Assembly: GCA_003281795.1 (NCBI GenBank)
Contig: QCAW01000010.1
Location: 1-39,958 of the forward strand
DNA: 39,958 nucleotides
Direction of reading: 5' to 3'
Source of the DNA: Pelagibacteraceae bacterium AG-345-F21
GTDB lineage: Bacteria > Pseudomonadota > Alphaproteobacteria > Pelagibacterales > Pelagibacteraceae
Positions within the stretch are counted from its first letter, which is position 1; each line of letters opens with the position of its first letter. A program made the translations under genes and the position numbers. This document shows positions 225-17,101 of the stretch, piece by piece. The notes beneath the pieces are model-generated. The model did not search any database. It was not told the origin of the DNA and was given only the letters and a program-made list of their open reading frames with translations.

Positions 225-1433
225 ATGAAAAAAAAAGTTCTCTTATATATATCGTCTTATAAATTTACTAAAATCGATAGGTATAAATATGAATTCGACA
301 AACTTGAAAGTAAACACAATCTAAAGATTATTATTCATGATCTCTCAGATATTTTGAGTAAAAGATTAGACGCAGTCTTTTTAGGTGAAATAAATAAAAA
401 AAATTATTATAAATTTGGCTCACTATCTAATTGGATTAAGTCATTTGAAAGATTGAAAAAAAAATACGATTTAACAATTTTCAACAACGTGAGTCGTTAT
501 GGTTTTAACTCTATTATAATTAATTTTCATTTAAAAAAATCAAACCTTCCTATAATAGTTTCACCTTCACCACAAGTTTATGATCCTCCTATAGAACAAA
601 ATTTAAAATCTTATATTAGTAAATATAAGAAAGTTTTTACAAATCCATTTTTAGTGTATTATTATTTAAAAATTTATATAGTAACTTTTTTAAATTCTTT
701 AATAACTTTTGAACATCTTTTTATTTTACAATCAGGATCTTTTAACAATTATGTTGTGTTAAAGTCAAAAAAAAAAACAATAGTAGATTTCCATGCGAGA
801 GATTATTCAAATTATTTAAATATAAAAAAGAATTTAAAGAAAAAAAATATTATAACTTATGTTGATACGGCCGGCCCATATTTTCCAGATGATTGGGTTA
901 TGATTGGAAAAAAATTAAATTTCAATTACAAAAATTGGTATAATATAATTAATAATTTTCTCAATTATGTTGAAAAAAAGTATAAAGCTAAAGTTATTGT
1001 AATACCTCACCCCAAAAATAGAAATAAAACTAATCCATATTTTAATGAAAAACATGGTCGGACTTTTGATAGATCAATAGATGCTTCAACTAAACTTATA
1101 CCATCAAGTAAATTTGTCATTTCTTACAATGCACATTCAACTGCAGTTAATTACGCAATAGCATCATCTACACCTTATTTTAATACCTACTCAAACGAAG
1201 TAAAAAAAGATTATAGGCTATACGGATTGTGTCTTGCTCTAGCAAAAGAGACAGGATGTAAAATAGTAAACATTACACAAAATTATAAATATAAAAATTT
1301 CAAATTTGATAAAGTTAAAGCAAATCAAAAACAATTTGATTATTATAAATACAAATATCTTACTTCAGAAAAAATTAAAGGAACTTCTAATTATAATATT
1401 TTAGCAAATATTATATTTAATAAAACTAATTGA
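225..1433 (+). CDS. GT-B-like surface polysaccharide biosynthesis protein
   Basis: This 402-residue protein starts at an ATG 15 bases after the second upstream palindrome and has no signal peptide. I do not recognise it confidently. The C-terminal half has VIPHP near residue 260, followed by a Ser-rich loop and SYNAHSTAVNYAIAS around residues 300-315. That pattern (HP, then a conserved Ser/His loop and small residues) resembles the donor-binding half of GT-B enzymes such as polysialyl- or Kdo-type transferases. Hydrophobic stretches near residues 140-170 could be a membrane-associating region. It opens a run with an ABC exporter, a LicD-like protein and a GT2 enzyme, so a role in building or handling a surface glycan is likely. 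Specific activity is unknown. Confidence 0.6.
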   Translation: MKKKVLLYISSYKFTKIDRYKYEFDKLESKHNLKIIIHDLSDILSKRLDAVFLGEINKKNYYKFGSLSNWIKSFERLKKKYDLTIFNNVSRYGFNSIIINFHLKKSNLPIIVSPSPQVYDPPIEQNLKSYISKYKKVFTNPFLVYYYLKIYIVTFLNSLITFEHLFILQSGSFNNYVVLKSKKKTIVDFHARDYSNYLNIKKNLKKKNIITYVDTAGPYFPDDWVMIGKKLNFNYKNWYNIINNFLNYVEKKYKAKVIVIPHPKNRNKTNPYFNEKHGRTFDRSIDASTKLIPSSKFVISYNAHSTAVNYAIASSTPYFNTYSNEVKKDYRLYGLCLALAKETGCKIVNITQNYKYKNFKFDKVKANQKQFDYYKYKYLTSEKIKGTSNYNILANIIFNKTN

Positions 1434-1440
1434 AATAATA

Positions 1441-3171
1441 ATGAATATTTTAAAACTTTTAAATAATAATCAAAAACAACAGTTTGTTATCTTAATTTTT
1501 TTGAGTTTTATTGCATCTTGTGCAGAAATATTGAATCTCGCGATTATTTTACCAATCATAAATACATTTTTAGGCATAGATAATTCTTTCTCACTTGAAA
1601 TTTTAAATAATATTTTTAATTTTTTTAATTTAAACATAGAAAATATTTTTTTAGTCTTAATTGTAATATTTGTTTTATTTTTAATAATTAAAGCTTGTCT
1701 ACTAATATATGTTTCTTGGAAAACTAATCATTTTGTCTTCAAGTTTATAAAAGAATTATCTAACAAGCTTTTTTTGAAATATCTTACATCTGACTACAAA
1801 TATATAGTTCGCAAAAACTCATCTGAATTATCAAGAAATTTAATACCAGAATTAGATGAACTTAACTTAAATCTAACATCATTTATGTTTGTAATTCTTG
1901 AAATCTTTATATTACTAGGTGTGATGACTTTCTTATTAATAGTAAATCCTATAGCAACAATAATTTTATCATTATCATCATTTTTGTTTGGATTAATATA
2001 TTTTCAATTAATCAAAAAAGTTATGGGTAACCTAGGCCTACAAAGACAAGCAGCTCGAGAGAAGCAAATGAGGTTTATGTATGAGGGATTATCTTCAATC
2101 AAAGAAATTAACATTTTTGGAAGAAAAAACTTTTTCGTTGATAGATTTAAAGAGCAAAATAGTTTTCTTGCTCAAATTTCTATAATATTTAATTTTCTAA
2201 GTCAGCTACCAAGAATAATTTTTGAAATATTTGTAATTTTTTTAATAGCTATTATTTTTCTTTATTTATTAAATACAGGACAAAGCAACAACGAAATAAC
2301 AAAATTTATTGCTCTTCTGTTTGCAGCCAGTTTAAGAATTTTACCCTCGATTTATAAAATATTTACTTGTCTGCAAAATATAAAATATACAAATTCTTCA
2401 GTTAAGGTTATTTACGATGACATAAATAATGTAGATCACGCAGAAATACAACAGAATGAAAATCACAGTCCGATTCAAATCAGTAAATCAATTGAATTAA
2501 TTGTACCTAAATTTAAACATAACGATAATGAGAAATTCAGTCTAGAAAATATTCAAATTCTAATACCAAGAAACAAAAAAATTGGGTTGATAGGTAAAAG
2601 TGGATCAGGGAAAAGCACAATTCTAAATATTTTGACAGGACTTATTAAATCCGAAAATATTAAATTGTTGGTTGATGATAAATTAATAAATCATAATTTA
2701 ATTAATTGGAAAAAGCTGGTTGGGCTAATTCCGCAAAACATTTTTATTTTAAATGATACTATAAAAAATAATATTCTTTTTGGAATTGATAATAAATTAG
2801 TTACGGACGAAAAAATCTTTGAGATAATAAGAATATCAAATCTTTTACCTCTTACTTCCAGATTTAAGCTTGGTGTAGAACATAATTTAAATGAAAAAGG
2901 GACAAATCTCTCCGGAGGTGAAATTCAAAGAATAGGAATAGCACGAGCTTTATTACATGATCCAAAAATACTTTTATTTGATGAAGCCACAAGCGCATTA
3001 GATACATTTACAGAAAATGAAATACTTAAAGAAATAAATAATTTAGAGGATAAAACTATATTTTCAATTTCCCACAGAATGAACACGCTAAAATATTGCG
3101 ATAAAATTTACCATTTAGAGGAAGGTAAAATAATAGATGAGGGAAATTTTCAAAAATTTAAAGACAAATAA
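1441..3171 (+). CDS. ABC transporter, fused permease and ATPase (lipid/glycan flippase type)
   Basis: A 576-residue half-transporter: an N-terminal transmembrane domain with several hydrophobic helices (about residues 15-40, 65-90, 150-190, 250-280), then an ATPase domain. The ATPase has Walker A GKSGSGKST (385-393), signature LSGGE (490-494), Walker B LLFDE (511-515) and the switch His545 in SISHR. This is the type I exporter architecture of MsbA and the lipid-linked oligosaccharide flippase PglK, which work as homodimers in the inner membrane. Its place between a GT-B-like protein and LicD/GT2 genes suggests it flips a lipid-linked glycan made by the neighbours. The substrate is inference; drug or peptide export is possible but less fitting here. 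Confidence 0.9.
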   Translation: MNILKLLNNNQKQQFVILIFLSFIASCAEILNLAIILPIINTFLGIDNSFSLEILNNIFNFFNLNIENIFLVLIVIFVLFLIIKACLLIYVSWKTNHFVFKFIKELSNKLFLKYLTSDYKYIVRKNSSELSRNLIPELDELNLNLTSFMFVILEIFILLGVMTFLLIVNPIATIILSLSSFLFGLIYFQLIKKVMGNLGLQRQAAREKQMRFMYEGLSSIKEINIFGRKNFFVDRFKEQNSFLAQISIIFNFLSQLPRIIFEIFVIFLIAIIFLYLLNTGQSNNEITKFIALLFAASLRILPSIYKIFTCLQNIKYTNSSVKVIYDDINNVDHAEIQQNENHSPIQISKSIELIVPKFKHNDNEKFSLENIQILIPRNKKIGLIGKSGSGKSTILNILTGLIKSENIKLLVDDKLINHNLINWKKLVGLIPQNIFILNDTIKNNILFGIDNKLVTDEKIFEIIRISNLLPLTSRFKLGVEHNLNEKGTNLSGGEIQRIGIARALLHDPKILLFDEATSALDTFTENEILKEINNLEDKTIFSISHRMNTLKYCDKIYHLEEGKIIDEGNFQKFKDK

Positions 3172-3176
3172 GCATT

Positions 3177-3875
3177 ATGACTAAAGAACCTTTTATAGAT
3201 AAAAATTTTGTAAGTATTATTAAAATACTTAAACAAAATAAATTAAAGTATTGGATTGGACAAGGTACACTTTTAGGAATAATTAGAGAGGGGAATCTAA
3301 TTGATTGGGACCATGATATAGACATATGCATGTGGCCTGAAGAAATAGAAAAAGAAAAAATTGTAAATATACTGACAGACAATAATTTTATTTTTAGAGA
3401 AGATCTTACTTTTGGTGAAAAATTTGATCAATTATCTTTTGACAAACCTGGAGGCAGAAGAGTAGATATAAATTTCTATCAAAAACAAAAACTTAAAGAC
3501 AACACAATAGTTGCTTGTAATAAATACGGTTTTCCTAGAAATAAATTAATGAGTTTAATTGATGCTATCTCATTAGTAGACGTTTACAACGGGAAATATA
3601 AAAATTTCATAAGAAAATTGAGATTTTTAAAAGCTACAATGAAATATTTTAAAAATGTTTTAATAAAAATTGGTTTTTTTTACAAAACTGCTGGATATAT
3701 GCAACCTATTGAATTGCTAAAAGAATTTAAAGAAATAGATTTTTACGGAATAAATGTAACGGTGCCAATAGCAACTGAGAAATACTTAGAACATGTCTAT
3801 GGTGAAAATTGGAGACAGCCAGTTAAAAATTTTACATGGTGGAAAATGAAAAACGTTAATACTTATTATGATTAA
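3177..3875 (+). CDS. LicD/fukutin-family phosphotransferase-like protein
   Basis: A 232-residue protein with the nucleotidyltransferase-fold signature of the LicD family: GTLLG at 30-34, R37, then W44-D45-H46-D47-I48-D49, and a further Asp in RRVDINF near residue 97. LicD enzymes transfer phosphocholine from CDP-choline to surface sugars; fukutin relatives transfer ribitol or glycerol phosphate. The second acid of the usual DDDID stretch is His here, while the flanking aspartates are kept. It starts 5 bases after the ABC transporter stop and overlaps the GT2 gene. With a cytidylyltransferase-PEP mutase fusion in the same island, it is an attractive candidate for placing a CMP-activated phosphonate on a glycan. 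That link is inference. Confidence 0.8.
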   Translation: MTKEPFIDKNFVSIIKILKQNKLKYWIGQGTLLGIIREGNLIDWDHDIDICMWPEEIEKEKIVNILTDNNFIFREDLTFGEKFDQLSFDKPGGRRVDINFYQKQKLKDNTIVACNKYGFPRNKLMSLIDAISLVDVYNGKYKNFIRKLRFLKATMKYFKNVLIKIGFFYKTAGYMQPIELLKEFKEIDFYGINVTVPIATEKYLEHVYGENWRQPVKNFTWWKMKNVNTYYD

Positions 3876-4677
3876 TTTAAGAGTAAAAGATAAAAAAATT
3901 AGTGTATTAATAACTGTTTATAATAATGAGAAGTATATAGGAAGATGTATTAAAAGTTTAAAGGATCAAACCTACAAAAATTGGGAAGCAATAATAGTTG
4001 ACGACGGTTCGATCGATGATACTCCAAAAATTCTCAAAAAAAAGTGTCGTGATAAAAGATTTAGAGTAATTACCTTTAAGAAAAATAAAGGCAGAGTAGC
4101 AGCTTATAATTACGGGGTTTCAAAATGCAAAGGTTATTATATAGCAATATTAGACTCCGACGATATTGCATTAAAAAATAGATTTGAAGAACAAATAAGT
4201 TTTTTTAATAAAAATAATACTGCAAAAATTGTAGCATCGTGGGCTTATTTAATAGATCGAAATTCAAAAATTATTAGAGAAATGACCGGTCCAACTGAAA
4301 AAAGGAAAATCAAAGAAAAACTTTTATTATTCAACTTTATCCCTCACTCAACCGTAATATACTGCAGAAATTATGCAAAAAAATTAAAAATATTGCCATT
4401 AAATTTTAAGTATGCAATTGATAATGAATTATATCTTAAATTTTTAAGACACACTGATATTTTTGTCATTCCTAAATTTCTTGGAAAAATTCGTTATTTA
4501 ACTAATAGCATCACTCATTCAAAAAATAATAAGCTTACAGTAATTAATGACGATCTTAAAAGCTTAAATTATGTTAAAACATATTTTAGTCTAAATAACA
4601 AAAAAAAATTTTATTTATTTTTAAAAAAAATGCAATTAATACTAAAGTTAATCTTTTATAAATTAAATTTTGTATAA
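3868..4677 (+). CDS. Family 2 glycosyltransferase
   Basis: A 269-residue GT-A enzyme. The N-terminal nucleotide-sugar domain begins ISVLITVYNNEKYI (11-24), with VDDGS at 44-48 and the metal-binding DSDD at 96-99, followed by a variable C-terminal acceptor half. No membrane helices are evident, so it probably works at the cytoplasmic face of the membrane. The ATG overlaps the LicD-like stop by 8 bases, implying translational coupling. The sugar and acceptor cannot be read from the sequence. Context suggests assembly of the same glycan that LicD and the ABC exporter handle. Confidence 0.9.
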   Translation: MINLRVKDKKISVLITVYNNEKYIGRCIKSLKDQTYKNWEAIIVDDGSIDDTPKILKKKCRDKRFRVITFKKNKGRVAAYNYGVSKCKGYYIAILDSDDIALKNRFEEQISFFNKNNTAKIVASWAYLIDRNSKIIREMTGPTEKRKIKEKLLLFNFIPHSTVIYCRNYAKKLKILPLNFKYAIDNELYLKFLRHTDIFVIPKFLGKIRYLTNSITHSKNNKLTVINDDLKSLNYVKTYFSLNNKKKFYLFLKKMQLILKLIFYKLNFV

Positions 4678-4678
4678 A

Positions 4679-5533
4679 ATGAAATATCAACAAATAAGAA
4701 AATTCAGTTATAAAACCGAAAAAAAAGTCTTAGAGTCAAGACATCATAATTTTGATATGAATAATTGGTTTAAATCACCATACACATGTTTAAAAATTAG
4801 ATTTTATATCGAGTTTTCAAGTTTATTTGTTTATTTAATTCAAAATTCAAAAATAAAGCCAAATCATATTAGCTACATTTACGCACTAGCGGGACTGTTG
4901 GGAGGTGTTTTTATTTCAATCAATAGCAATAATTTTATTATTGCTGGCATATTTATTATTTTTTTTAAAGTAGCAATTGATGGCGCTGATGGTTTATTGG
5001 CTAGGGTAAAGTATAAACCTTCAAATTTCGGCTCCGCAATAGATAGTTGGGGAGGTTTGGTAGGAGAGTATAGCTTCATAGTTGGATTTGGTTTTTATAT
5101 ATTTAATATGACACAAAATCAAAACTATATTTATTTAACTTTTGTAATAGTCTTGTTAAAAGCTTTAGATTTAAAAAACTACGTATTGTATTATATTGGA
5201 ACCATTAAAAGTCAGAAAATTTCCTTAACAAATGAAAAAAGCCAAAAGACAAATATATCGCAAAAAAAAACACGTGGAATAGGAAAATTATTCAATTTTT
5301 TTAAGAATATTGTTAAAAACGGGTTTAATTATCAAGCTAAGACTGTAGACACAATTTTATTGATCATTTTAATAGAAATAAATTATCAACAAATATTTAT
5401 TTCCCAGTATTTCTTTTATCTATTTTTGATAAGGGGAATAATAATTTTTTTTGGAGATATATTTTTAGCCCAAAAAGAAAACTTTCTAATGAATGTTGCT
5501 AAAAATAAAATTAAATATAAAAACAATAATTAA
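4679..5533 (+). CDS. CDP-alcohol phosphatidyltransferase homologue with altered last catalytic Asp
   Basis: An integral membrane protein of 284 residues from the ATG at 4679; a TTG at 4670 is the alternative and would overlap the GT2 gene. The family motif D-x2-DG-x2-AR-x8-G-x3-D-x3-D reads D101, D104-G105, A108-R109, G118, D122, but the last Asp, thought to be the catalytic base, is Gly126. Hydrophobic segments flank the motif (about 58-100, 128-165, 210-270). Family members swap CMP from a CDP-alcohol for another alcohol, making phospholipids such as phosphatidylglycerol or PE. Here the partner could be a CDP-phosphonate or CDP-glycerol made by the neighbouring cytidylyltransferases, giving a phosphono- or phospho-lipid. 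The missing Asp leaves activity open. Confidence 0.8.
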   Translation: MKYQQIRKFSYKTEKKVLESRHHNFDMNNWFKSPYTCLKIRFYIEFSSLFVYLIQNSKIKPNHISYIYALAGLLGGVFISINSNNFIIAGIFIIFFKVAIDGADGLLARVKYKPSNFGSAIDSWGGLVGEYSFIVGFGFYIFNMTQNQNYIYLTFVIVLLKALDLKNYVLYYIGTIKSQKISLTNEKSQKTNISQKKTRGIGKLFNFFKNIVKNGFNYQAKTVDTILLIILIEINYQQIFISQYFFYLFLIRGIIIFFGDIFLAQKENFLMNVAKNKIKYKNNN

Positions 5534-5539
5534 GATTAT

Positions 5540-5935
5540 ATGAGAAAAAAAAGAGTTTTAGTTGATTTATCCGCCACTATTATCCATCATGGGCATATAA
5601 GATTATTGAAAAAATCAAAAAAATACGGAACTATTATTGTTGGTTTAAGCACGGATAAGGAAGTAAAAAAATACAAGGGTTATTACCCCGAATTGAATTT
5701 TAAGTATAGAAAAGAAATTGTATCCTCAATAAAGTATGTAGATAAAGTAATCCCCTCTAAATGGAAAATTACAAACAGTTTTTTAAAGAAAAATAAGATT
5801 GATATTATCATACGTGGACATGATCATAAAAAAGATAAGTTTCAAATTAAATCAATTATCTTTCCAAGGACTAAAGGTATAAGTAGCAAACTACTCAGAA
5901 AAAAATCAGCAATGATATATAAAAAAAAAAAATGA
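5540..5935 (+). CDS. Small cytidylyltransferase (glycerol-3-phosphate/phosphoalcohol type)
   Basis: A single-domain 131-residue protein of the GCT family: HxGH at H16-H17-G18-H19, GLSTDKE near 35, YVDKVIP near 69-75, RGHDHKKDKF in place of the usual GDDW loop, and RTKGISS (CTP-binding RTEGIST) near 112. These enzymes join CTP with a phosphoalcohol (glycerol-3-phosphate, phosphoethanolamine and similar) to give a CDP-alcohol. It resembles the N-terminal domain of the PEP mutase fusion at 11113. It follows the CDP-alcohol transferase homologue by 6 bases and overlaps phosphonopyruvate decarboxylase by 4, so it could supply a CDP donor to either transferase in the island. The substrate is not determined by sequence. 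Confidence 0.82.
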   Translation: MRKKRVLVDLSATIIHHGHIRLLKKSKKYGTIIVGLSTDKEVKKYKGYYPELNFKYRKEIVSSIKYVDKVIPSKWKITNSFLKKNKIDIIIRGHDHKKDKFQIKSIIFPRTKGISSKLLRKKSAMIYKKKK

Positions 5936-7062
5936 TAAAACCAAATCAATTTATAAAAATTTTAAAAAAAAATAAAATTAATTTTTTTGCAGGAGTTCCA
6001 GACTCTTTATTTGCAAGTTTATGCAACTATTTTCAAGATTATGAAAAAAAAAACCATATATTATCTACTAACGAGGGATCAGCAGTAGGTTTAGCGATAG
6101 GTTATCATTTAGCTACTGGAAAAGTCCCATTAGTTTATCTACAAAACTCAGGTTTAGGTAATGTTATTAATCCTGCAGTTTCTTTATCAGATAAAAAAAT
6201 ATTTAATATTCCTATTTTTTTTCTAATTGGCTGGAGAGGAGAACTAAATAAAAATAATATTCAAATTAAAGACGAACCTCAGCACAAAACTCAAGGACAA
6301 ATTACTAAGGCACTTCTTAAAATATTAAATATTAAATTTGAAGTTCTTAATAGTAAATCAAATTATGTAAATATTATTAATAGACTTAGTAAATATTCAA
6401 AAAAAAACAATAAACCTGTTGCAATTTTAATTCGAAAAAACTCTTTTGCTGGGAAAAAAAATATACAAGTTAAAAAGAAAAATAATTTTTTAACAAGAGA
6501 AATTGCACTTCAAACGGTATTTGATTGTATTCCAAAAAATATACCAAAAGTTTCAACCACTGGGATGTTATCTAGAGAGTTGTATGAAATGAATAAAAAA
6601 ATAAAAAAAGAGAAAAATACTTTTATGTGTATTGGAGGAATGGGACATGCAATATCTATTACTTCAGGTTTAGCGATGGTCAAGAATAAAAGAAAAATTA
6701 TTTGTTTAGATGGCGATGGGTCAAGTCTTATGCATTTTGGTGCGATGGCTGTTAGCGCAAAAATGAAAAACATAATTCACATAGTTTTTAATAATCACGC
6801 TCATGACTCGGTGGGAGGTCAAACACCACCTTCTGAAAATATTGAATTTTACAAAATATCAAAACAATTTGGGTATTCGCATTCGTATAAAGTAAATAGT
6901 AAAAAAGAAATTGTTAAAAAAATTAAAGTTGCAATTAAAAATAAGAATAACACATTTATTGAAATTTTATGTATAAAAGGACATAGAGATAATTTATTAA
7001 GGCCGAGCAAAGAAGCCGCATACTACAAAAAAATTTTTATGAAATTTATTAAAGAAAATTGA
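5932..7062 (+). CDS. ppd: Phosphonopyruvate decarboxylase
   Basis: This 376-residue thiamine-diphosphate enzyme converts phosphonopyruvate to phosphonoacetaldehyde and makes the unfavourable PEP mutase reaction irreversible. Family marks are FAGVPDSLF (19-27), TNEGSA with the TPP-activating Glu near residue 48, YLQNSGLGN, the IGWRGE ... DEPQHKTQG stretch near 110-130, and the TPP-binding GDGSS...NNHAHDS motif near 263-290. The length matches the usual Ppd of about 380 residues. It starts inside the stop of the small cytidylyltransferase (ATGATAA), so the two are coupled. Sulfopyruvate decarboxylase is a relative, but the PEP mutase in the same run settles the role. A 103-base gap with a good -10 box follows. 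Confidence 0.93.
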   Translation: MIKPNQFIKILKKNKINFFAGVPDSLFASLCNYFQDYEKKNHILSTNEGSAVGLAIGYHLATGKVPLVYLQNSGLGNVINPAVSLSDKKIFNIPIFFLIGWRGELNKNNIQIKDEPQHKTQGQITKALLKILNIKFEVLNSKSNYVNIINRLSKYSKKNNKPVAILIRKNSFAGKKNIQVKKKNNFLTREIALQTVFDCIPKNIPKVSTTGMLSRELYEMNKKIKKEKNTFMCIGGMGHAISITSGLAMVKNKRKIICLDGDGSSLMHFGAMAVSAKMKNIIHIVFNNHAHDSVGGQTPPSENIEFYKISKQFGYSHSYKVNSKKEIVKKIKVAIKNKNNTFIEILCIKGHRDNLLRPSKEAAYYKKIFMKFIKEN

Positions 7063-7124
7063 TTAAATTTATGATGAGACAAGCTATAAAGAAAAATTGA
7101 ATATTTAGAGCTATTCTATTCTAT

Positions 7125-7150
7125 TTGATTTGGTTAATATTTAGTATAAT
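7125..7150 (+). promoter_or_regulatory. Putative promoter for the second half of the phosphonate cluster
   Basis: The only sizeable gap inside the cluster (7063-7165) carries a perfect TATAAT at 7145-7150, 15 bases before the radical SAM start codon. A TTGATT lies at 7125-7130, but the 14-base spacer is short; weaker -35 matches occur at the usual distance. No terminator-like hairpin with a T-run is seen in the gap. Transcription would start close to the ATG, leaving a very short leader. Confidence 0.45.
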
Positions 7151-7165
7151 AACATTAAACAATTT

Positions 7166-8680
7166 ATGAAAAAAGCTAGGATTTTACTTTGTACACCTAA
7201 TCTTAAAGGGATTAAAGACGGTTTAAACCGAATACAACCCCCTTTGGGTTTAATGCTAATTGCACAAACTTTGCTTAATCAAGGTCATGATGTAAAAATT
7301 CATGATTTTGCTTTAGAAGGTTGGAAAAATAGAGTTGATCTTGATATTAAAAATAATCTTGTTTTAATTGGTCAAAATGACGAAGAAGTAAGAAAAGTTA
7401 TTTCTGATTATAATCCTGATCTTATTGGAATTTCAGTTTTATTTCAAAATCTTATAGAACACGCACAACATATTGCAAAAATTGCAAAAAGCGTTAATAA
7501 AAAAATTCAAGTTTTTATAGGTGGAAATTGTATTTCAAACGCTGTCATTGACTATAAACATGGAATAGCAGATAAAAATTCTAATTTACCAGACTTTATT
7601 TCTTACCTTGATGATCCAAATATAGATTGTGCTATTTCAGGTGAAGGTGAGGATGCAGTAAAACATTTTGTAAATTCTTTTATTGAAAATGGTGATATCT
7701 CTAAAACACCAGGCTTGGTAAAGAAAGTTGGACATAAAAAATATATTATCAACGATCCATCCAAAATTCATTTTATGGATACACTTCCAAGACCCGCAAG
7801 ATATTTAGTTAATATGGAGGGTTACTTTGATATAGGCGCGTTCCATTCATCTAAATCAAGATCAAATAGAGTATTAAACGTTATGTGTTCACGAGGTTGT
7901 CCTGAAAAGTGTACTTTTTGTACAACCCCAGCAATGTGGGGAGCAAATATCCGCTGGAGATCAATCGAACATATAATGGAAGAAATAAAAAATGATGTTA
8001 AAAATTATAAAATAGGGGAGATACAATTTGATGATGACAGCTTAACTTTAAATAAAAAGATGCTTTACTCTTTATGCAAAGAGCTCGAAAAAATCGGTGT
8101 CCCTTGGTGCACTCCTAACGGAACAAAAGTTAATTATCATTTGAGAGAACAGTACGATATGTACAAAGCTATGCATGACTCCGGTTGCTATCAACTTACT
8201 CTTGCTTGTGAAAGCGGAGTCCAGAGAGTATTAGATGATATAGTCAAAAAAAACCTTCCTTTGGAAAATATCAAACCTGCAATAGAGAGAGCAAAAAAAG
8301 CCGGTATGTTAGTTCATACTTTCTGGATATTAGGGTACCCTGGAGAAACTTACGAAGAAATGCAAAAAACAATAGATTTTGCAATGTCTAGCGGAGCGGA
8401 CAGTTTTACCTTTTCAGTTTTGACACCATTATCAGGAACTCCAATATATAGAAAAGTTTTAAAAGAAAATTTATGGTGGGATGGTCGAGAAAATCAGAAT
8501 ACTTTTAGATCATCATTAATTAAAGTTGATGGTTTTGATAACGCTGAACAATTTGAAAAATTTGTAAATGACGCAAACATCAAAGCAAATATGCTTTTAA
8601 AAGCAAAAGACCCAGCTAGATTCGAATATAAATACAGAGAAAGAACTGGAAGCAAAAAAACTTTTGTAAAACAAACTTAG
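7166..8680 (+). CDS. Cobalamin-binding radical SAM enzyme (B12-rSAM)
   Basis: The 504-residue product has the class B methyltransferase layout. An N-terminal Rossmann-like B12-binding domain (about 1-190, with PPLGLMLIAQTL, VIS..NPDLIGIS and IGGNCIS stretches) precedes a radical SAM TIM barrel with C245-x3-C249-x2-C252. The CTP-like spacing CPEKCTFC is canonical. Later landmarks such as QFDDDSL, LACESGVQ and FWILGYPGET are typical of the SAM-binding barrel. Relatives include Fom3, which C-methylates a cytidylylated phosphonate, and many C-methyltransferases; other members do ring or chain rearrangements. Here it sits between Ppd and a PhnW-like aminotransferase. C-methylation of a phosphonate intermediate is a reasonable guess but is not shown by the sequence. 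Confidence 0.85.
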   Translation: MKKARILLCTPNLKGIKDGLNRIQPPLGLMLIAQTLLNQGHDVKIHDFALEGWKNRVDLDIKNNLVLIGQNDEEVRKVISDYNPDLIGISVLFQNLIEHAQHIAKIAKSVNKKIQVFIGGNCISNAVIDYKHGIADKNSNLPDFISYLDDPNIDCAISGEGEDAVKHFVNSFIENGDISKTPGLVKKVGHKKYIINDPSKIHFMDTLPRPARYLVNMEGYFDIGAFHSSKSRSNRVLNVMCSRGCPEKCTFCTTPAMWGANIRWRSIEHIMEEIKNDVKNYKIGEIQFDDDSLTLNKKMLYSLCKELEKIGVPWCTPNGTKVNYHLREQYDMYKAMHDSGCYQLTLACESGVQRVLDDIVKKNLPLENIKPAIERAKKAGMLVHTFWILGYPGETYEEMQKTIDFAMSSGADSFTFSVLTPLSGTPIYRKVLKENLWWDGRENQNTFRSSLIKVDGFDNAEQFEKFVNDANIKANMLLKAKDPARFEYKYRERTGSKKTFVKQT

Positions 8681-8696
8681 TAAGTTTGTTATTAAA

Positions 8697-9677
8697 ATGA
8701 ATATAAATAAATTTGTTATAACTCAAAATAAAAAAAAAAAATTATTGACACCAGGTCCAGCAAGTCTATTGGCTGAAAACATATCAGGTCTTAGACCTTG
8801 TTTTGGCCGAGGGGATAAAGATTATACTAAACTAGAATCAATCGTTCTTAACAAATTAAAGAAAATTTCTGGCCATAGATATATTGCAAGATTACAAGGG
8901 TCTGCAAGTCTTGCCTTAGAAATACTTACTACAAACTTTTTGTATGGGAAAGTTTTAATAATAGACACGGGAGTTTACTCTGAAAGAATTAAAACCATGT
9001 CTAAATACAACAAAAAAGTTTTTAAAAAAGTTAAAAGCGTTGAGTCAGTTAGTTGGACTAAAATAAAAGATTTTAAAAAAAATTTTGATTGGATTTTTGC
9101 TTGTCCCACTGAAACTAGCATTGGTTTGAAAGTGCCTATTAGCGATTTATTTCGACTTAAAAAAAGATGTAAAGCGAAACTTGCGTTAGATGCTACTGCT
9201 TCAATTGGATTGGAAAAAAACCATGATTTGTCTGATGTCTTAGCTTACAGTTCTTGTAAAGGTTTGTTTGGTTTGACCGGTGCAAGTTTTATTGCTTTTA
9301 ATAATTATCCTCAGAATGAAGTTGAGTCTTTTTACTTAAATATTAATAATCATCTAGAAAGTAAAATGACGGGTCCTTACCATACTATTTTGTCATTATA
9401 CGATGTCTTAAAAGAATATAACAATTTTAAATACTCGGTAATTATTAATAAAAGAAAAATTAGCAAGATCATGGGAAATCAAATGCTTTATCCCAAAGTT
9501 AATCAACCTTTGTTGTGCACTTATATAAAAAAAAAATTAATTTCATCAAATAATAAGATTATATTTTATAAAACAAGAGCCAACTTACCAGGAAGTGTTG
9601 TTTGTCATTTAGGAGAAGTGCATTTAAAAAAGAAATCTAGAGGTAACATATTAAATAATCTTAATTATGGAAAATAA
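8697..9677 (+). CDS. PhnW-like class V aminotransferase (2-aminoethylphosphonate forming)
   Basis: A 326-residue PLP enzyme of fold type I. It opens with LLTPGPAS (16-23), the signature start of 2-aminoethylphosphonate:pyruvate aminotransferase and its alanine-glyoxylate relatives. LQGSASLALE near 65-74 forms the cofactor-phosphate loop, D165 in LALDATASIG contacts the pyridine nitrogen, and K188 in SSCKG is the Schiff-base lysine. PhnW proteins are usually near 360 residues, so the C-terminal domain is trimmed. In this cluster the natural substrate is phosphonoacetaldehyde from Ppd, giving 2-aminoethylphosphonate. The end overlaps the dioxygenase start by 11 bases. An altered substrate is possible given its divergence and length. 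Confidence 0.78.
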   Translation: MNINKFVITQNKKKKLLTPGPASLLAENISGLRPCFGRGDKDYTKLESIVLNKLKKISGHRYIARLQGSASLALEILTTNFLYGKVLIIDTGVYSERIKTMSKYNKKVFKKVKSVESVSWTKIKDFKKNFDWIFACPTETSIGLKVPISDLFRLKKRCKAKLALDATASIGLEKNHDLSDVLAYSSCKGLFGLTGASFIAFNNYPQNEVESFYLNINNHLESKMTGPYHTILSLYDVLKEYNNFKYSVIINKRKISKIMGNQMLYPKVNQPLLCTYIKKKLISSNNKIIFYKTRANLPGSVVCHLGEVHLKKKSRGNILNNLNYGK

Positions 9678-10419
9678 AGCTAAACAGAGAAATTTTTTTG
9701 AAAAAAATGGTTACATTAAAATTTCAGGTTTTTTTTCAAAATCTGAAATAAATTTATTAAAGAATTTAGTTTTGAAAATTCAAAAACTCAAGCCTCAAAA
9801 AGGTAAACATATGATTTATACAGACAAATTAAAAAATAAAAATGTTTTAACTAGAACAGAAAATTTTTTCGATTACGAGAAAGGAATGAAAAAATTCTTG
9901 AATAAGAAAAAAATCAAAAGTCTTTTAAAAAATTTAACTGGATTTGAACAAGTATTATTCAAAGATAAGATTAACTGGAAATACCCAGGGGCTAAAGGTT
10001 TTGAGCCTCATCAAGATGCTCAAGTATGGGAAAATTTATATAAAAATGTAAAAAGTTTTGTCTCTTTAACTATTTCTGTAGACAGAACCACTATTAAAAA
10101 TGGCTGCTTAGAAATTGCTAAAGAAAAACATACAGAGGGTCTTTTAGGTGACAATAAATCAGCTATACCCGATAAAGTAGTCAAAAAATTAAAATGGAAA
10201 AAAATCACGACCGAACCGGGAGATCTTATTATTTTTGGAGCATACACCCCTCATAGATCAAAACAAAATAAATCTAATCGAGCTAGAAGAATGATGTATT
10301 TAACTTATAATTCAAAAAAAGACGGTAATTTGAGAAAAAATTATTATAGAAATAAAAGATTAAGTTTTCCTCCTAATAATGAACGAGTAAAAGGAAAACA
10401 ATATAAATATTTAATATGA
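9667..10419 (+). CDS. PhyH-family Fe(II)/2-oxoglutarate dioxygenase
   Basis: A 250-residue phytanoyl-CoA dioxygenase-like protein. It carries the facial triad as H115-x-D117 (in FEPHQDAQVW) and H196 (in TPHRSKQN), with Arg205 or Arg207 placed to bind 2-oxoglutarate. The core is a double-stranded beta-helix; no signal peptide is present. Within this superfamily PhnY* hydroxylates C1 of 2-aminoethylphosphonate, and several phosphonate antibiotic pathways use PhyH-like hydroxylases. Its position directly behind the aminotransferase (11-base overlap) and before a methyltransferase (4-base overlap) supports a tailoring role on aminoethylphosphonate. The alternative is hydroxylation of a sugar or lipid part of the product. 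Confidence 0.82.
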   Translation: MENKAKQRNFFEKNGYIKISGFFSKSEINLLKNLVLKIQKLKPQKGKHMIYTDKLKNKNVLTRTENFFDYEKGMKKFLNKKKIKSLLKNLTGFEQVLFKDKINWKYPGAKGFEPHQDAQVWENLYKNVKSFVSLTISVDRTTIKNGCLEIAKEKHTEGLLGDNKSAIPDKVVKKLKWKKITTEPGDLIIFGAYTPHRSKQNKSNRARRMMYLTYNSKKDGNLRKNYYRNKRLSFPPNNERVKGKQYKYLI

Positions 10420-11105
10420 TAAAAATACCAAAATCTTTAAAAAAAAACATGTATGACTACGAGACTTTCTATCATCTTTCAATGACTGAAGACAGATTGG
10501 GTAAATTTTTAGCGCATTATGAGGCCTACAAAATGGCAGCCAAAATTCCTGGTGAGGTAATAGAATGTGGAGTTTTTAAAGGAACCTCTTTTGTAAGATT
10601 TGCTTTGCTAAGGGAATTATTTGGTGGAGAAAACAGTTCAAGACTAATAGCTTTTGATGTTTTTAGCAATTCTTATCCAAAGACAAAGTTTAAAGAAGAT
10701 AATGCTCAAAGGTCATTTTGGATTAAAAATGCGGGTAGCAAATCTATAAGTACTAAGCAATTATCTAATAATTTAAAAGAGAAGAAAATTAAAAATTTTA
10801 AATTAATCGCAGGCGATGTACTTAAAACTATCCCTAAATTTAAAAAGAATAATCCAGGGTTAAAAATCTCATTATTAAATATAGACATAGATTTTGTAGA
10901 ACCTACCTTGTGTGTTCTTGAACACTTTTATGAAAACGTTACTAAAGGTGGTGTAATTTTATTTGATAATTATGCTGGAAGAGGAGAGTCAGGCAAATAT
11001 TTGCATGGAGATACAGCTGGAATAGATAAATTTTTAAAAAATAAAGACATAATTATTAGACGATTTCCTTTTGCAGCTAGGCCTTGTTACTTAATCAAAA
11101 AATAA
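10416..11105 (+). CDS. TylF/MycF-like methyltransferase
   Basis: A 229-residue Rossmann methyltransferase of the macrocin O-methyltransferase (TylF) family. The SAM-binding stretch is GEVIECGVFKGTS near residues 46-58, with the acidic end of strand 2 at IAFDVFSN near 78. The probable metal-binding acids lie in NIDIDF (about 154) and FDNYAGRG (about 183). Relatives O-methylate sugars on macrolides and also occur in surface-polysaccharide clusters. The start overlaps the dioxygenase stop by 4 bases (ATGA), so the two are coupled. The substrate may be a sugar hydroxyl of the glycan or the hydroxyl that the dioxygenase installs. The sequence does not decide. Confidence 0.8.
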   Translation: MIKIPKSLKKNMYDYETFYHLSMTEDRLGKFLAHYEAYKMAAKIPGEVIECGVFKGTSFVRFALLRELFGGENSSRLIAFDVFSNSYPKTKFKEDNAQRSFWIKNAGSKSISTKQLSNNLKEKKIKNFKLIAGDVLKTIPKFKKNNPGLKISLLNIDIDFVEPTLCVLEHFYENVTKGGVILFDNYAGRGESGKYLHGDTAGIDKFLKNKDIIIRRFPFAARPCYLIKK

Positions 11106-11112
11106 AATCTTT

Positions 11113-12423
11113 ATGAAAAAAAAAAAGAAAACAGTTTATATTGCATTAGCAGCAGATACGATTCATCACGGACATATAACTCTTATTGAAAAAGGGAAAA
11201 AGTACGGAGATATAGTTATTGGGTTAATCACCGATAAAGCTATAGCTGAACATAAGAGAATACCTTATTTAAATTATGAACAAAGAAAAAAAATTTTATC
11301 TAATTTAAAAGGTGTTACCAAAGTTATACCTCAAAAAGAGTATGATTATTCGGTAAATATTTTCAAGTTAAAACCCGACTATATGATACATGGAGATGAT
11401 TGGAAAAAAGGTTATGACAAAACTTTGAGAAACAACGCAATTAAAGCTTTAAAAGCATGTAAAGGTAAGCTTGTAGAAATTCCTTATACCAAAGGAATAT
11501 CTTCCGATGCTTTAACTAAATCACAAAATTTGAACTTAGTCACTTCTGACACTAGAAGAGGAATGTTGCAAAGGTTATTACGAGCAAAAAATTTTTTAAG
11601 ATTTATTGAAGCTCACAGCCCTCTTTCAGCTTTAATAAGTGAAAATGCATTGGTAAAAAAAAATGGCAGACATATTTTCTTTGATGGTTTTTGGTCGAGT
11701 TCTTTGACAGACTCAACTTCAATGGGTAAACCAGACAATGAATACGTTGACAACTCTCTAAGACTAACTGGAATTAATCATATTTTTGATGTTACTTCAA
11801 AACCACTAATATTTGATGGAGACACAGGTGGAAAAAAAGAACATTTTGATATGAAAATAAAAACTATCGAAAGATCTGGAGTTTCAGCTATTATTATAGA
11901 GGATAAAACCGGTTTGAAAAAAAATTCATTATTACAAAATACTAAAAATCAACAGCAAGAAAACATTAAATCTTTCTCAGAAAAAATATCCATTGGAAAG
12001 AAAGCTCAATTAAGTAGTGATTTCATGATTATAGCAAGAATAGAAAGTTTTATTTTAGGAAAAAAAATTAATGATGCAATGACAAGAGCTCATGCTTATA
12101 TAAAGGCAGGAGCAGACGGAATTATGATACATAGTAAATCTAAAAACCCAAATGAAATTTTTAGTTTTGCCCGAAAGTTTAGAAAAATTTATAAAAATGT
12201 TCCATTAATCGGTGTACCATCAACTTATAATCAAGTTACTGAAAAAGAATTAGAAAAAAATGGGTTTAATATAGTAATCTACGCAAACCAAATGTTGAGA
12301 GCCTCTTACCCAGCGATGATGAATGTTGCAATGAAAATACTTAAAAATGGAAGAGCAAAAGAGGTAGAAAAAGACTTATTTTCAATAAAAAATATTCTTA
12401 ATCTTATACCAGGTACGAAATAA
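11113..12423 (+). CDS. pepM: Bifunctional cytidylyltransferase - phosphoenolpyruvate mutase (Fom1-like fusion)
   Basis: A 436-residue two-domain protein. Residues 1 to about 140 form a cytidylyltransferase with HHGH at 18-21, GDDWKKGYD near 97-104 and KGISSD at 127-132. Residues from about 150 form a PEP mutase with FDGFWSSSLTDS (near 197), GDTGG (near 237) and the diagnostic E263-D264-K265-x5-N271-S272 motif that separates true PepM from isocitrate lyase-like relatives. PepM makes the C-P bond, turning PEP into phosphonopyruvate; the fused domain should join CTP to a downstream phosphonate. The same pairing is found in Fom1 of fosfomycin biosynthesis and in other phosphonate producers. It starts 7 bases after the TylF-like gene. 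The identity of the cytidylylated phosphonate is open. Confidence 0.93.
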   Translation: MKKKKKTVYIALAADTIHHGHITLIEKGKKYGDIVIGLITDKAIAEHKRIPYLNYEQRKKILSNLKGVTKVIPQKEYDYSVNIFKLKPDYMIHGDDWKKGYDKTLRNNAIKALKACKGKLVEIPYTKGISSDALTKSQNLNLVTSDTRRGMLQRLLRAKNFLRFIEAHSPLSALISENALVKKNGRHIFFDGFWSSSLTDSTSMGKPDNEYVDNSLRLTGINHIFDVTSKPLIFDGDTGGKKEHFDMKIKTIERSGVSAIIIEDKTGLKKNSLLQNTKNQQQENIKSFSEKISIGKKAQLSSDFMIIARIESFILGKKINDAMTRAHAYIKAGADGIMIHSKSKNPNEIFSFARKFRKIYKNVPLIGVPSTYNQVTEKELEKNGFNIVIYANQMLRASYPAMMNVAMKILKNGRAKEVEKDLFSIKNILNLIPGTK

Positions 12424-12432
12424 CTAAAATTA

Positions 12433-13068
12433 ATGAGCTTATCAAAAAAAACGATTCATTACTGGAACAATTTTTATTCAAAAAAGAAAGTAATAAATAA
12501 GCCTACAAAATTTGCTTTATTCTGTTTAAAATATTTAAATTCTTATTCTGGAATTTTGTTTGATGCTGGTTGTGGAAATGCAAGAGACACAGTTTTTTTT
12601 AATAAAAAAAAAATTAATACAATCGGATTAGATATTTCAGATAGCATAATAAAGATTAATAAAAAACATAATAAAAGGCTTAAAAAAAAATTTATCAAAA
12701 AAAATTTTTGTAATTTTTTTAAAAAAGAAATTAAATCAAATTTTTCAGTTTATTTGAGATTTACCATACACACAATTAACCACAAAAGTGAAAAAGTATT
12801 TTTTAACTCTTTAAGTAAACAAAAAAATTTAAATTATTTGTTTATCGAAACCAGAACTACTCAAGATGAATTTTATAAAGTTGGAAAAAAAGTGGGAAGA
12901 AACGAATATATTTCAGATCATTTTAGAAGATTCATTGTGCCTAAAGAAATTAAAAAAACATTGTCTAAAAAATTTGATATTATTTTTGCAAAACAATCGA
13001 CACAATTTGCTAAATATAAAAACTTTAAACCTAAAGTTCTTAGAATAATTGCAAAAAAAAAATTATAA
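12433..13068 (+). CDS. Class I SAM-dependent methyltransferase
   Basis: A 211-residue Rossmann-fold protein. The SAM-binding loop is LFDAGCGNARDT (about 40-51), with the strand-2 acidic residue in IGLDISDS (about 64-71). Post-motif strands follow, but the second half is poorly conserved against anything I recognise. It follows the PEP mutase fusion by 9 bases and ends 2 bases before tRNA-Val, so it is the last gene of the island and its transcript probably runs into the tRNA. A role in methylating a phosphonate, amine or sugar of the same pathway is suggested by position only. Confidence 0.75.
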   Translation: MSLSKKTIHYWNNFYSKKKVINKPTKFALFCLKYLNSYSGILFDAGCGNARDTVFFNKKKINTIGLDISDSIIKINKKHNKRLKKKFIKKNFCNFFKKEIKSNFSVYLRFTIHTINHKSEKVFFNSLSKQKNLNYLFIETRTTQDEFYKVGKKVGRNEYISDHFRRFIVPKEIKKTLSKKFDIIFAKQSTQFAKYKNFKPKVLRIIAKKKL

Positions 13069-13069
13069 A

Positions 13070-13144
13070 GGGCGTGTAGTTCAGTGGTAGAACGCTACGT
13101 TGACATCGTAGAGGTCATAAGTTCAATTCTTATCACGCCCACCA
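13070..13144 (+). tRNA. tRNA-Val (GAC)
   Basis: A full cloverleaf: acceptor GGGCGTG pairs with CACGCCC, anticodon stem CTACG/CGTAG encloses the loop TTGACAT with anticodon GAC at 13102-13104, and the T arm is ATAAG-TTCAATT-CTTAT. Discriminator A and an encoded CCA end the gene at 13144. It marks the boundary between the island and the core, starting 2 bases after the last island gene. Confidence 0.96.
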
Positions 13145-13207: not shown

Positions 13208-13325
<118 letters not shown>

Positions 13326-15000: not shown

Positions 15001-16403
15001 TGATATCTGCCAATCTTTCAGCAGCTTTTTACTTAATATCAGGAATTCTGTTTATTCTAGCACTAAGAGGCTTATCTTCTCCTGATACATCAAGGCAGGG
15101 TAATTATTTTGGTATAGCGGGAATGGCAATCGCAATTGTTGTTACATTTTTATCGGTCGGAAATTTTTCTAGTTCACTGGCGTATATAATTATTTTTTTA
15201 GTTATAGGTGGAGCAATAGGTGCTTTTATAGCGTTTAAAATACCTATGACCGCAATGCCAGAGCTAGTTGCAGGTTTTCATAGTCTAGTAGGTTTGGCAG
15301 CTGTTTTTGTTGCTATCGCAGCATTTTTAAATCCTGAGGCATTTAATCTTGGAACTTTTGGCAACATAAAATTAGCAAGTTTAGTAGAAATGTCGATTGG
15401 CGCGGCGGTAGGTGCTATAACTTTTTCAGGATCGATAATAGCTTTCTTAAAACTTAGGGGCTTGATGTCTGGTGCCCCAATTACTTTTAGTGGCCAACAT
15501 CTTTTAAATTTAATTCTTGGAATAGCAATTTTTATATTAATTTTTTATTTGTGCAAAACACAGTCAGAAAGCATGTACTGGTCAGTCATAGCAATTTCCT
15601 TTTTGGTTGGTGTTCTATTAATTATTCCTATTGGGGGCGCAGATATGCCCGTAGTTATTTCAATGCTTAACTCTTATTCGGGTTGGGCAGCTGCAGGTAT
15701 TGGATTTACTCTAGAGAACACTGCGTTAATTATTACCGGCGCTCTAGTCGGATCATCAGGAGCAATTCTTTCATATATTATGTGTAAAGCAATGAACAGA
15801 TCTTTCGTTAGTGTAATACTTGGTGGCTTCGGAGCCGACAACTCTTCTGACAACAAAAAAGATAAGAAAGATCATAAGCCAGTAAAAAGCGGCAATGCTG
15901 AAGATGCAGCTTTCTTAATGAAAAATGCTTCGTCTGTAATTATTGTTCCAGGATATGGAATGGCTGTTGCACAAGCGCAGCACGCTCTAAGAGAAATGGT
16001 AGACAAGCTTAAGAAAAACGATATTAAAGTTACCTACGCTATACACCCGGTGGCAGGTAGAATGCCAGGTCATATGAACGTTCTTTTGGCTGAAGCAAAT
16101 GTTCCTTACGATGAAGTTTTTGAACTTGAAGATATTAATAACGATTTTGCTAATTCTGATGTAGCTTTTGTGATTGGAGCTAATGATGTTACTAATCCTG
16201 TTGCTAAAACAGACCCTAAAAGTCCAATATTTGGCATGCCAGTACTTGACGTTGAAAAATGTAAATCGGTTTTATTTGTTAAAAGAAGTTTATCTCCTGG
16301 GTACGCTGGAATAGACAACGAATTATTCTACAAAGACAATACTTTAATGCTGTTTGCTGATGCTAAAAAAATGACAGAAGATATTGTAAAAAATTTAGAT
16401 TAA
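15000..16403 (+). CDS. pntB: NAD(P) transhydrogenase subunit beta
   Basis: A 467-residue protein: about nine N-terminal membrane helices (residues 1-260, including [11 protein letters not shown] and [18 protein letters not shown]), then a soluble NADP-binding domain III (about 290-467). Domain III has [34 protein letters not shown] and [11 protein letters not shown]. Domain III docks with PntAA for hydride transfer while the helices conduct protons. Length and motifs are complete. Confidence 0.96.
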
Positions 16404-17101
16404 TGAAAACTAAAATATTTTGTGACATAGCTGATATAAAAACTATAAAGTTTTATAATAACAAGACTCTTGTTGATGGCTTTACTACCAATCCAAGTTT
16501 AATGAGACTAGCTGGAGCTAAAAATTATAAAGATTATTCAACCAAAATATTAAAATATTGTAAAAATAAACCTATTTCTTTTGAGGTTTTTGCAGACAGT
16601 CCTACAGAAATGCTTAAACAAGCATATAAAATAACTGCTTGGGGGAAGAATGTTTATGTTAAAATTCCTGTAGTAAACTCAAAGGGTTTATTTATGGGCT
16701 CAGTGATTAAAGAACTGAGCGGCAAAGGAATAAAATTAAATATCACCGCAGTATACACCTTTGAACAAACTAAAAAAATATACAAATGCTTGAATAAAAA
16801 AAGCAAGTCAATCATATCTATTTTTGCTGGAAGGATGGCGGATAATGGAAAAGACCCATTACCTATATTCAAAAAAAGTATTTTTTTAACAAGAACTAAT
16901 AGAAACATAGAAATTCTTTGGGCTAGTACTCGTGAACCTTACAATTATATACAAGCAAGACAATTAAATTGTAATATTATTACTATGCCACCAAAAGTGA
17001 TTAATAAGATAGACAGATTTGGTAAAAGTTTTAGGTCAATGACTTTAGACACAGTAAAAGGTTTTTTAGCTGATAGTAAAAAATCTAAATTTAATCTTTA
17101 A
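16403..17101 (+). CDS. tal: Small transaldolase (transaldolase/fructose-6-phosphate aldolase family)
   Basis: A 232-residue TIM barrel. DIADI near residue 8, TTNPSLM at 28-34, and the Schiff-base lysine in VYVKIPVV (about 86-93) are the family marks; TAVYTFEQ and SIFAGRMADNG match later strands. Transaldolase moves a dihydroxyacetone unit between sedoheptulose-7-phosphate and glyceraldehyde-3-phosphate. The short form also includes fructose-6-phosphate aldolases. It overlaps pntB by 1 base and converges on typA with a 4-base stop-to-stop overlap. With tkt at 24519 it completes the non-oxidative pentose phosphate branch. Confidence 0.88.
   Translation: MKTKIFCDIADIKTIKFYNNKTLVDGFTTNPSLMRLAGAKNYKDYSTKILKYCKNKPISFEVFADSPTEMLKQAYKITAWGKNVYVKIPVVNSKGLFMGSVIKELSGKGIKLNITAVYTFEQTKKIYKCLNKKSKSIISIFAGRMADNGKDPLPIFKKSIFLTRTNRNIEILWASTREPYNYIQARQLNCNIITMPPKVINKIDRFGKSFRSMTLDTVKGFLADSKKSKFNL

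Follow-up and report, generated by a model that had tools for sequence, protein, structure and literature searches.

A recurrent, probable aminoethylphosphonate-type tailoring module of Pelagibacterales that includes a B12-binding radical SAM enzyme

The genes described here have their closest described counterparts in the fosfomycin pathway of Streptomyces and in the phosphonate clusters of marine bacteria. Fom1 was reported to make the cytidine monophosphate (CMP) conjugate of hydroxyethylphosphonate (CMP-HEP), and fusions with PF01467 were counted in 23.6% of Ppm enzymes (Rice et al. 2019, PMC6697681). Fom3 was described as methylating C2 of CMP-HEP, acting on the CMP form (PMC8158854). In SAR11, pepM, the gene of phosphoenolpyruvate (PEP) mutase, was reported in 18% of cells, near glycan genes, when no demonstration of phosphonate production by this group yet existed (Acker et al. 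2022, PMC8931226), which agrees with a preliminary description of the present locus that had mentioned reports of pepM in some SAR11 genomes. We analyzed a stretch of 39,958 nucleotides (the window), which is contig C10 (QCAW01000010.1) of Pelagibacteraceae bacterium AG-345-F21, a genome of 0.97 Mb at 85% completeness. It carries a cluster in which PEP mutase (PepM), phosphonopyruvate decarboxylase (Ppd) and a putative 2-aminoethylphosphonate (AEP) transaminase lie together with a B12-binding radical S-adenosylmethionine (SAM) enzyme, a dioxygenase and two methyltransferases.

We concluded that these genes belong to a real and conserved tailoring module for an AEP-type phosphonate, with CMP activation and a clade-specific B12-binding radical SAM enzyme. 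The sequence itself establishes the gene identities, the intact signatures, the linkage and the recurrence in other genomes. Below, G numbers denote genomes (G000 is the window's own) and L numbers the loci compared. The pathway genes are as follows.

5540-5935, + strand: CyT2, stand-alone cytidylyltransferase (PF01467, 1.4e-13; HHGH and RTKGISS intact)
5932-7062, + strand: Ppd, phosphonopyruvate decarboxylase (TIGR03297, 397.3 bits)
7166-8680, + strand: rSAM, B12-binding radical SAM enzyme (PF02310 and PF04055 over cut-off; CxxxCxxC intact)
8697-9677, + strand: AT, short PhnW-like class V aminotransferase of 326 residues (AEP-transaminase models, conserved residues)
9667-10419, + strand: PhyH, Fe(II)/2-oxoglutarate dioxygenase (PF05721, 5.9e-21)
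10416-11105, + strand: TylF-family O-methyltransferase (PF05711, 1.3e-13)
11113-12423, + strand: cytidylyltransferase-PEP mutase fusion (CyT-PepM) of Fom1 architecture (PF01467 and PF13714; TIGR02320, 390.7 bits)
12433-13068, + strand: MT2, class I SAM methyltransferase (PF08241, 21.5 bits)

A co-occurrence search across SAR11, which the preliminary description had proposed, showed that the module recurs with shuffled gene order, so that the tailoring set is not unique to this genome. PEP mutase scored over the cut-off in 41 of 397 Pelagibacterales genomes. Close relatives of rSAM (E < 1e-200, 64-66% identical, with 219 invariant positions) were found in nine of the 397, the window's genome included, and all nine carry pepM (hypergeometric p 5.7e-10, uncorrected for kinship). 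Ten further genomes had distant rSAM matches only, and one of the nine holds such a match as a second copy. Within the 41 genomes with pepM, AT was present in eight of the nine that have rSAM (odds ratio 56, p 4e-5). In G366, CyT-PepM, Ppd, AT, CyT2, an APS-kinase-like gene, rSAM and PhyH form a run on one strand; the order is the same in G335, the same without PhyH in G284, and in G159 the same genes occur with rSAM and PhyH on the opposite strand. In G301, from another genus, a stretch of about 7 kb carries rSAM, TylF, the CDP-alcohol-transferase-like gene, CyT-PepM and AT in the same direction, interspersed with two further genes. The rSAM gene of G114 stands on a separate contig of 3 kb, and that of G222 lies about 15 kb from pepM.

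The APS-kinase-like gene is not among the window cluster genes. It lies between CyT2 and rSAM at L099:9564-10088, L100:9695-10234 and L104:9148-9681, and after CyT2 at L098:6429-6941; profiles were scanned against this last copy alone, with which the other three cluster.

The cluster almost certainly makes a phosphonate. The PepM domain scored 390.7 bits against TIGR02320 (curated cut-off 319.6) and Ppd 397.3 bits against TIGR03297 (curated cut-off 312.5). The early steps, which had been called firm by motif, thus stand, and the profile search placed both enzymes in phosphonate families. The PEP mutase signature EDKxxxxxNS was intact in the window fusion and in all 30 loci of the PepM comparison. 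A second protein of the PEP mutase superfamily in G000 scored only 119.5 bits, under the TIGR02320 cut-off, indicating that the match of the window PepM is not a generic family match. The PepM rows of five genomes (G191, G306, G380, G066 and G176) carry one TAA within the matched stretch; in G191 and G306, PepM is nevertheless one uninterrupted frame, of 433 and 432 amino acids respectively, with the motif present, and the TAA there may be the terminal stop.

The AEP branch is highly probable. AT scored 67.1 bits against the PhnW model TIGR03301 and did not reach its cut-off of 360.8, and AEP-transaminase models were still its best matches; all 12 AT homologues matched the same three models. 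Lys188 and Asp165, which by our reading align with the pyridoxal phosphate residues of PhnW, were invariant in 12 of 12. The structure model of AT had a mean predicted confidence (pLDDT) of 85, and a Foldseek search of the PDB ranked AEP transaminases first to third (6pd2, 7e7g) with TM-scores of about 0.7; other class V enzymes scored nearly as high, and the fold alone therefore does not fix the substrate. Distribution is stronger evidence for an AEP role than fold. AT relatives were present in 12 of the 41 Pelagibacterales genomes with pepM, and a draw of 367 Pelagibacterales genomes gave 12 matches, 11 of them strong and all in genomes with pepM, and the remaining one weak and partial (30%) in G093, which is pepM-negative. 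G391, an AT-positive genome with pepM, is absent from the rows of this draw and was presumably not drawn.

CMP activation would also be very likely, judging from the two cytidylyltransferases with intact signatures, one of them Fom1-like. The fusion has an N-terminal PF01467 domain with HxGH and a C-terminal PepM domain, as in Fom1-type fusions. The best solved relative of its N-terminal domain was chain 5x3d (E 2.9e-41; 64 of 132 aligned residues identical, 48%), deposited as PEP phosphomutase, which we take to be the isolated cytidylyltransferase domain of Fom1 from the fosfomycin pathway. The H, G and H of HxGH were kept in all 11 aligned CyT2 proteins, and CyT2 may be the activity that the AEP branch cannot lose. 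Fusions were examined at 34 of the 42 PepM places, 12 AT-linked and 22 other. In the fused domain, ten of the AT-linked fusions had HHGH, that of G159 read HHAH, and the one of G284 lacked any recognisable motif; all 12 had the PepM motif. None of the 22 other SAR11 fusions showed HHxH. Since HHxH thus occurred, among the fusions examined, in AT-linked ones alone, the substrate may differ. The PepM tree placed 11 of the 12 AT-linked fusions in one supported group (99/97), and that of G284, on a long branch, fell outside. A Prochlorococcus contig, L022, carries CyT2 (55%) beside a fused domain with HHGH (53%), showing that the pair also occurs outside SAR11.

Two side observations concern the fusions. 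At L104:12138-13430 (G284) and L098:2585-3919 (G159), the HxGH of the fused domain is lost or changed, with the PepM motif and the separate CyT2 intact. L102 (G301) has two PepM fusions, at 5869-7179 and 15211-16512, about 8 kb apart, one of HPGH type near an Fe-ADH gene and the other of HHGH type adjoining AT; from the two fusion types, we read this island as holding two phosphonate branches.

In rSAM, the B12-binding and radical SAM domains were both recognised, and cysteines 245, 249 and 252 of CxxxCxxC were invariant in all nine members. In a tree of 29 sequences, the nine SAR11 members and the non-SAR11 sequence of L149 (52% identical) formed a supported clade (100/100). The next branch holds L147 and L146, with support of only 81/70, under the level marked by a star. 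At L147:5259-10684, from the same phylum outside SAR11, rSAM directly precedes a PepM-NTP-transferase fusion, Ppd and PhnW, a second operon of the B12-rSAM/AEP kind. No rSAM relative was found in a scan of viral contigs. A plasmid search with rSAM gave 30 records, the 15 listed all at <=32% identity, and the best listed match (Eleftheria terrae) had no pepM-like gene within 15 kb in its gene table, which is incomplete. Loci of rumen Prevotella and Treponema (18), which have the CyT-PepM fusion, mostly Ppd and in some cases canonical-length PhnW-like genes, were considered as a source of the tailoring set and ruled out, because none of these and one Prochlorococcus locus (L004-L022, 0 of 19) matched the window rSAM, PhyH or TylF at E <= 1e-6.

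The best NCBIfam match of PhyH was methylphosphonate hydroxylase NF052437, at 182.6 bits against a cut-off of 500, which was not reached. Its iron ligands, by our reading H115-x-D117...H196, were invariant in nine of nine. Relatives of PhyH were present in 19 of the 41 genomes with pepM (E <= 1e-5), the best at 70% identity and the poorest short and weak, and a catabolic role was judged from gene neighbourhood only. By analogy with PhnY-type enzymes, PhyH would hydroxylate C1. A TylF relative (53%) lies near rSAM in G301. MT2 passed PF08241 narrowly (21.5 bits, cut-off 21.2), fell under three other Pfam cut-offs (PF13847, for example, 26.2 against 27) and was 58% identical to a gene in the pepM cluster of G114. 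All genes named in the preliminary description were found as open frames on the + strand, the MT2 and transaminase assignments being weak by profile score. The B12-binding and radical SAM domains, PhyH, both cytidylyltransferase domains, the CDP-alcohol-transferase-like protein, LicD, GT2, ABC and TylF are secure as domain assignments.

Genes for transfer and export stand upstream of the pathway genes, and RNA genes follow them.

225-1433, + strand: first gene, without family (no Pfam match)
1441-3171, + strand: ABC exporter, PglK/MsbA-like (PF00005, PF00664; best NCBIfam model PglK, 279.5 bits, under cut-off)
3177-3875, + strand: LicD-family phosphotransferase (PF04991, 1.3e-14)
3868-4677, + strand: GT2 glycosyltransferase (PF00535, 1.5e-37)
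4670-5533 (alternative ATG 4679), + strand: CDP-alcohol phosphotransferase-like membrane protein (PF01066, 2.8e-8, over the Pfam cut-off)
13070-13144, + strand: tRNA-Val(GAC), island edge
13210-13324, + strand: 5S rRNA, edge of hypervariable region 2 (HVR2) (Rfam RF00001, 95.3 bits)

Phosphonate attachment to the surface is thus likely in this setting, and the first gene is probably glycan-related as well. The 13 genes from 225 to 13068 are nearly contiguous open frames in one direction, separated in order by 7, 5, -8, -8, 6, -4, 103, 16, -11, -4, 7 and 9 bases; the largest gap is 103 bases, and most are below 17 or overlaps. The cluster had been given a start at 4679; it is present there, but the gene set reaches upstream to at least 225. 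It is bounded on the right by tRNA-Val and then 5S rRNA, and on the left by the contig start. HVR2 lies between the 5S and 23S rRNA genes, and the window has the 5S-side edge, with no 23S match at the contig start. At L097, a related locus, the equivalent place is likewise occupied by a tRNA and 5S rRNA, adjoining the pepM fusion of that locus. These results support a position in a SAR11-type hypervariable island, as had been proposed, the 5S/tRNA-Val end being one known edge of HVR2.

The most likely product would be a CMP-activated AEP, hydroxylated and C-methylated, on a surface glycan. PEP mutase would form phosphonopyruvate, Ppd would convert it to phosphonoacetaldehyde, and the PhnW-like AT would give AEP, which CyT2, the Fom1-like domain fused to PepM, or both would turn into CMP-AEP. 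Then rSAM would methylate a carbon of the CMP-bound phosphonate in a Fom3-like manner; CMP-AEP is taken as its substrate because of the precedent of Fom3 on CMP-HEP. PhyH would hydroxylate the phosphonate, most likely at C1, and O- or N-methylation of the phosphonate, or of the glycan that bears it, would fall to TylF and MT2. Transfer of the phosphonate from CMP onto a lipid-linked glycan may be the work of the CDP-alcohol-transferase-like protein, LicD, or both, and the ABC protein would export this glycan. In this scheme, we infer the substrates of rSAM, PhyH, TylF and MT2, the methyltransferase activity of rSAM, the order of steps and the acceptor. The product first suggested, a tailored CMP-activated phosphonate on a surface glycan or lipid, accordingly holds in its phosphonate nature, AEP branch, CMP activation and surface-glycan context, and remains conditional for dioxygenase, rSAM and methyltransferases acting on the phosphonate. 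We give this cell-surface AEP-type pathway, with C-methylation by rSAM on the CMP form, a probability of about 0.5 as a whole; action of rSAM on the phosphonate at all would be an even bet.

Several observations weigh against this pathway. Neither rSAM nor PhyH reached an equivalog cut-off. The top model for rSAM is a P-methyltransferase rather than a C-methyltransferase, and the second-best is HpnJ. The best solved relative of rSAM, AprD4 (E 2e-21), is listed as an oxidoreductase and stands ahead of the methyltransferase TokK, which ranked third (1.4e-10), so that methyl transfer by rSAM is a putative activity. The structure model of rSAM was poor (pLDDT 62.8) and unfit for fold search. For PhyH, the best solved relative was the ectoine hydroxylase EctD (1.8e-8), not a phosphonate enzyme. 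G222 has rSAM without AT, and its Ppd is followed by an Fe-ADH-family gene; G391 has CyT2, AT, CyT-PepM and rSAM together with no Ppd in the stretch read. CDP-alcohol phosphotransferases share the signature DxxDGxxAR-x8-GxxxDxxxD, of which the last Asp is the catalytic base. The CDP-alcohol-transferase-like protein of the window has Gly in place of this Asp, which was absent in all five pepM-cluster homologues aligned (window, L101, L102, L109 and L113) and kept in two other PF01066 proteins of G000. Finally, the neighbours of rSAM in L149 are sugar and CMP-sugar genes and a TylF relative (36%); no PepM was found on that contig, and its genome has one on another contig.

This neighbourhood of L149 is the best evidence for the main competing explanation, which we regard as possible rather than probable: the product would be plain AEP or hydroxy-AEP, and rSAM, TylF and MT2 would act on a sugar in the surface glycan that carries it, one island encoding one decorated glycan. 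The nearest solved structure to TylF is the sugar O-methyltransferase CalS11, its solved relatives also include mycinamicin III 3''-O-methyltransferase, and glycan genes adjoin in the window, all of which fit sugar tailoring. The distribution of rSAM argues the other way, as all nine SAR11 genomes with rSAM have pepM, while 356 of the 397 genomes do not. So do its positions within the PepM-Ppd-AT-CyT2 runs of G366, G335 and G284, and that of the sister rSAM of L147 beside PepM-Ppd-PhnW.

It is improbable that AEP decorates the surface in the ordinary way while rSAM and PhyH are passengers that entered the hypervariable island recently and have no functional relation to this decoration. The shuffled gene order among relatives would suit such passengers, as would the turnover of HVR2, which was reported to be fast (PMC2217521), but the conservation of rSAM over nine genomes and its one-sided tie to pepM speak against them. 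Still less probable is that rSAM is a P-methyltransferase with the chemistry of PhpK or Sden_1168, giving a phosphinate with a C-P-C unit. The Sden_1168 model (NF038361) had the best E-value of all NCBIfam models for the window protein and across all nine members, but the window protein scored 235.1 bits against a cut-off of 575; over a phylum sample, the model matched rSAMs at E <= 1e-40 in 35 of 349 genomes, and none of the 349 passed the cut-off. The assignment by model name was rejected, because the model draws rSAMs from many genomes under its cut-off. PhpK needs a P-H phosphinate, and no match of CPEP-synthase or CPEP-mutase type was above cut-off in the window cluster. Least probable of all is a free, secreted, antibiotic-like phosphonate in the style of the fosfomycin cluster, which the Fom1-like fusion, Ppd and the B12-rSAM would allow, but against which stand the abutting LicD, GT2, CDP-alcohol-transferase-like and ABC genes, the position at HVR2, a surface island, and the lack, in the whole set of 13, of any match of FomD or epoxidase type (Pfam on 13 of 13, NCBIfam on 10 of 13; the gene 225-1433 without family).

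Neighbouring genes in some relatives speak for B12 use by rSAM. The SAR11 clade has been called B12-auxotrophic (PMC9296465). In G000, no protein other than rSAM matched PF02310, a domain with matches in 12 of 14 control genomes, and neither a TonB plug domain nor a relative of DUF6580 was found in this incomplete assembly. In G391 and G222, genes for DUF6580 and a TonB receptor stand beside rSAM (L101:12002-14407 and L105:5493-8042), and the receptors had a BtuB-like B12 receptor as best model, at 140 and 136 bits against a cut-off of 599.7. DUF6580 also adjoins rSAM in G301 and G114. Of the nine genomes with the phosphonate rSAM, seven had DUF6580, compared with 86 of 388 others (p 8e-4). 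Counting every genome with an rSAM match of whatever strength, the figures were 14 of 19 versus 79 of 378 (p 3e-6); neither p value is corrected for kinship. This co-occurrence suggests, as a guess, that DUF6580 has a role in B12 uptake or is a component of a B12 transporter; it was unnamed in the literature searched.

We tentatively propose, at somewhat less than even odds, that the SAR11 coat bears a new phosphonate class, a C-methylated and perhaps C1-hydroxylated aminoalkylphosphonate built on CMP by a B12 radical SAM methyltransferase, and that the sole recognised enzyme of G000 with a B12-binding domain serves surface decoration. Such C-P compounds form a large and poorly explained share of marine phosphorus, and the cluster names testable enzymes and predicts a methylated aminophosphonate for nuclear magnetic resonance surveys. 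If a C-methylated phosphonate is the surface group, it would bear on recognition by phages and grazers and on the phosphonates that feed marine C-P lyases. B12 supply would then be tied to marine phosphonate chemistry, with some lineages carrying B12-uptake genes beside rSAM. The cluster also links a B12-binding enzyme to a group stated to be without MetE, MetH and the split methionine synthase MtgBCDE (PMC12478193).

Compared with known systems, the window rSAM shares its superfamily with the radical SAM P-methyltransferases PhpK and Sden_1168, the latter giving its best model, but it lies far under that family's cut-off and in an AEP-type neighbourhood. The Pnt pathways of phosphonyl tailoring, as presented by Rice et al. 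(2019, PMC6697681), likewise combine PepM, Ppd, an AEP transaminase, a cytidylyltransferase and a LicD-like transferase; the window cytidylyltransferases, in contrast, are PF01467 rather than the PF12804 type characterised as PntC, and the B12-rSAM and PhyH are additional. As in the SAR11 and Prochlorococcus clusters of Acker et al. (2022, PMC8931226), pepM stands beside glycan-assembly genes; the main text of that paper, supplements aside, does not contain 'radical SAM', 'cytidyl' or 'methyltransferase'. A marine cluster survey by Lockwood et al. names fom3 once in its text, in a pathway legend (PMC9381506). The B12-rSAM/AEP module was not found described in the literature searched (titles and starts of abstracts, with supplements and subscription papers outside this scope).

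The fosfomycin pathway (Fom1, Fom2, FomC, Fom3) has in common with the window a CyT-PepM fusion, Ppd and a B12-rSAM, likened to Fom3 by enzyme class, which makes a CMP-bound intermediate plausible. Unlike that pathway, the window has a transaminase in place of the FomC reductase, a second cytidylyltransferase, PhyH, TylF and glycan-transfer genes, and no FomD- or Fom4-like gene was recognised in its cluster. The earlier statement that the set matches no characterised pathway thus holds, within the scope of the search, for the set as a whole, but its opening steps together with the B12-rSAM do parallel fosfomycin biosynthesis. The presence of pepM in SAR11 islands is known, and within the literature searched the new part is the B12-rSAM/AEP module.

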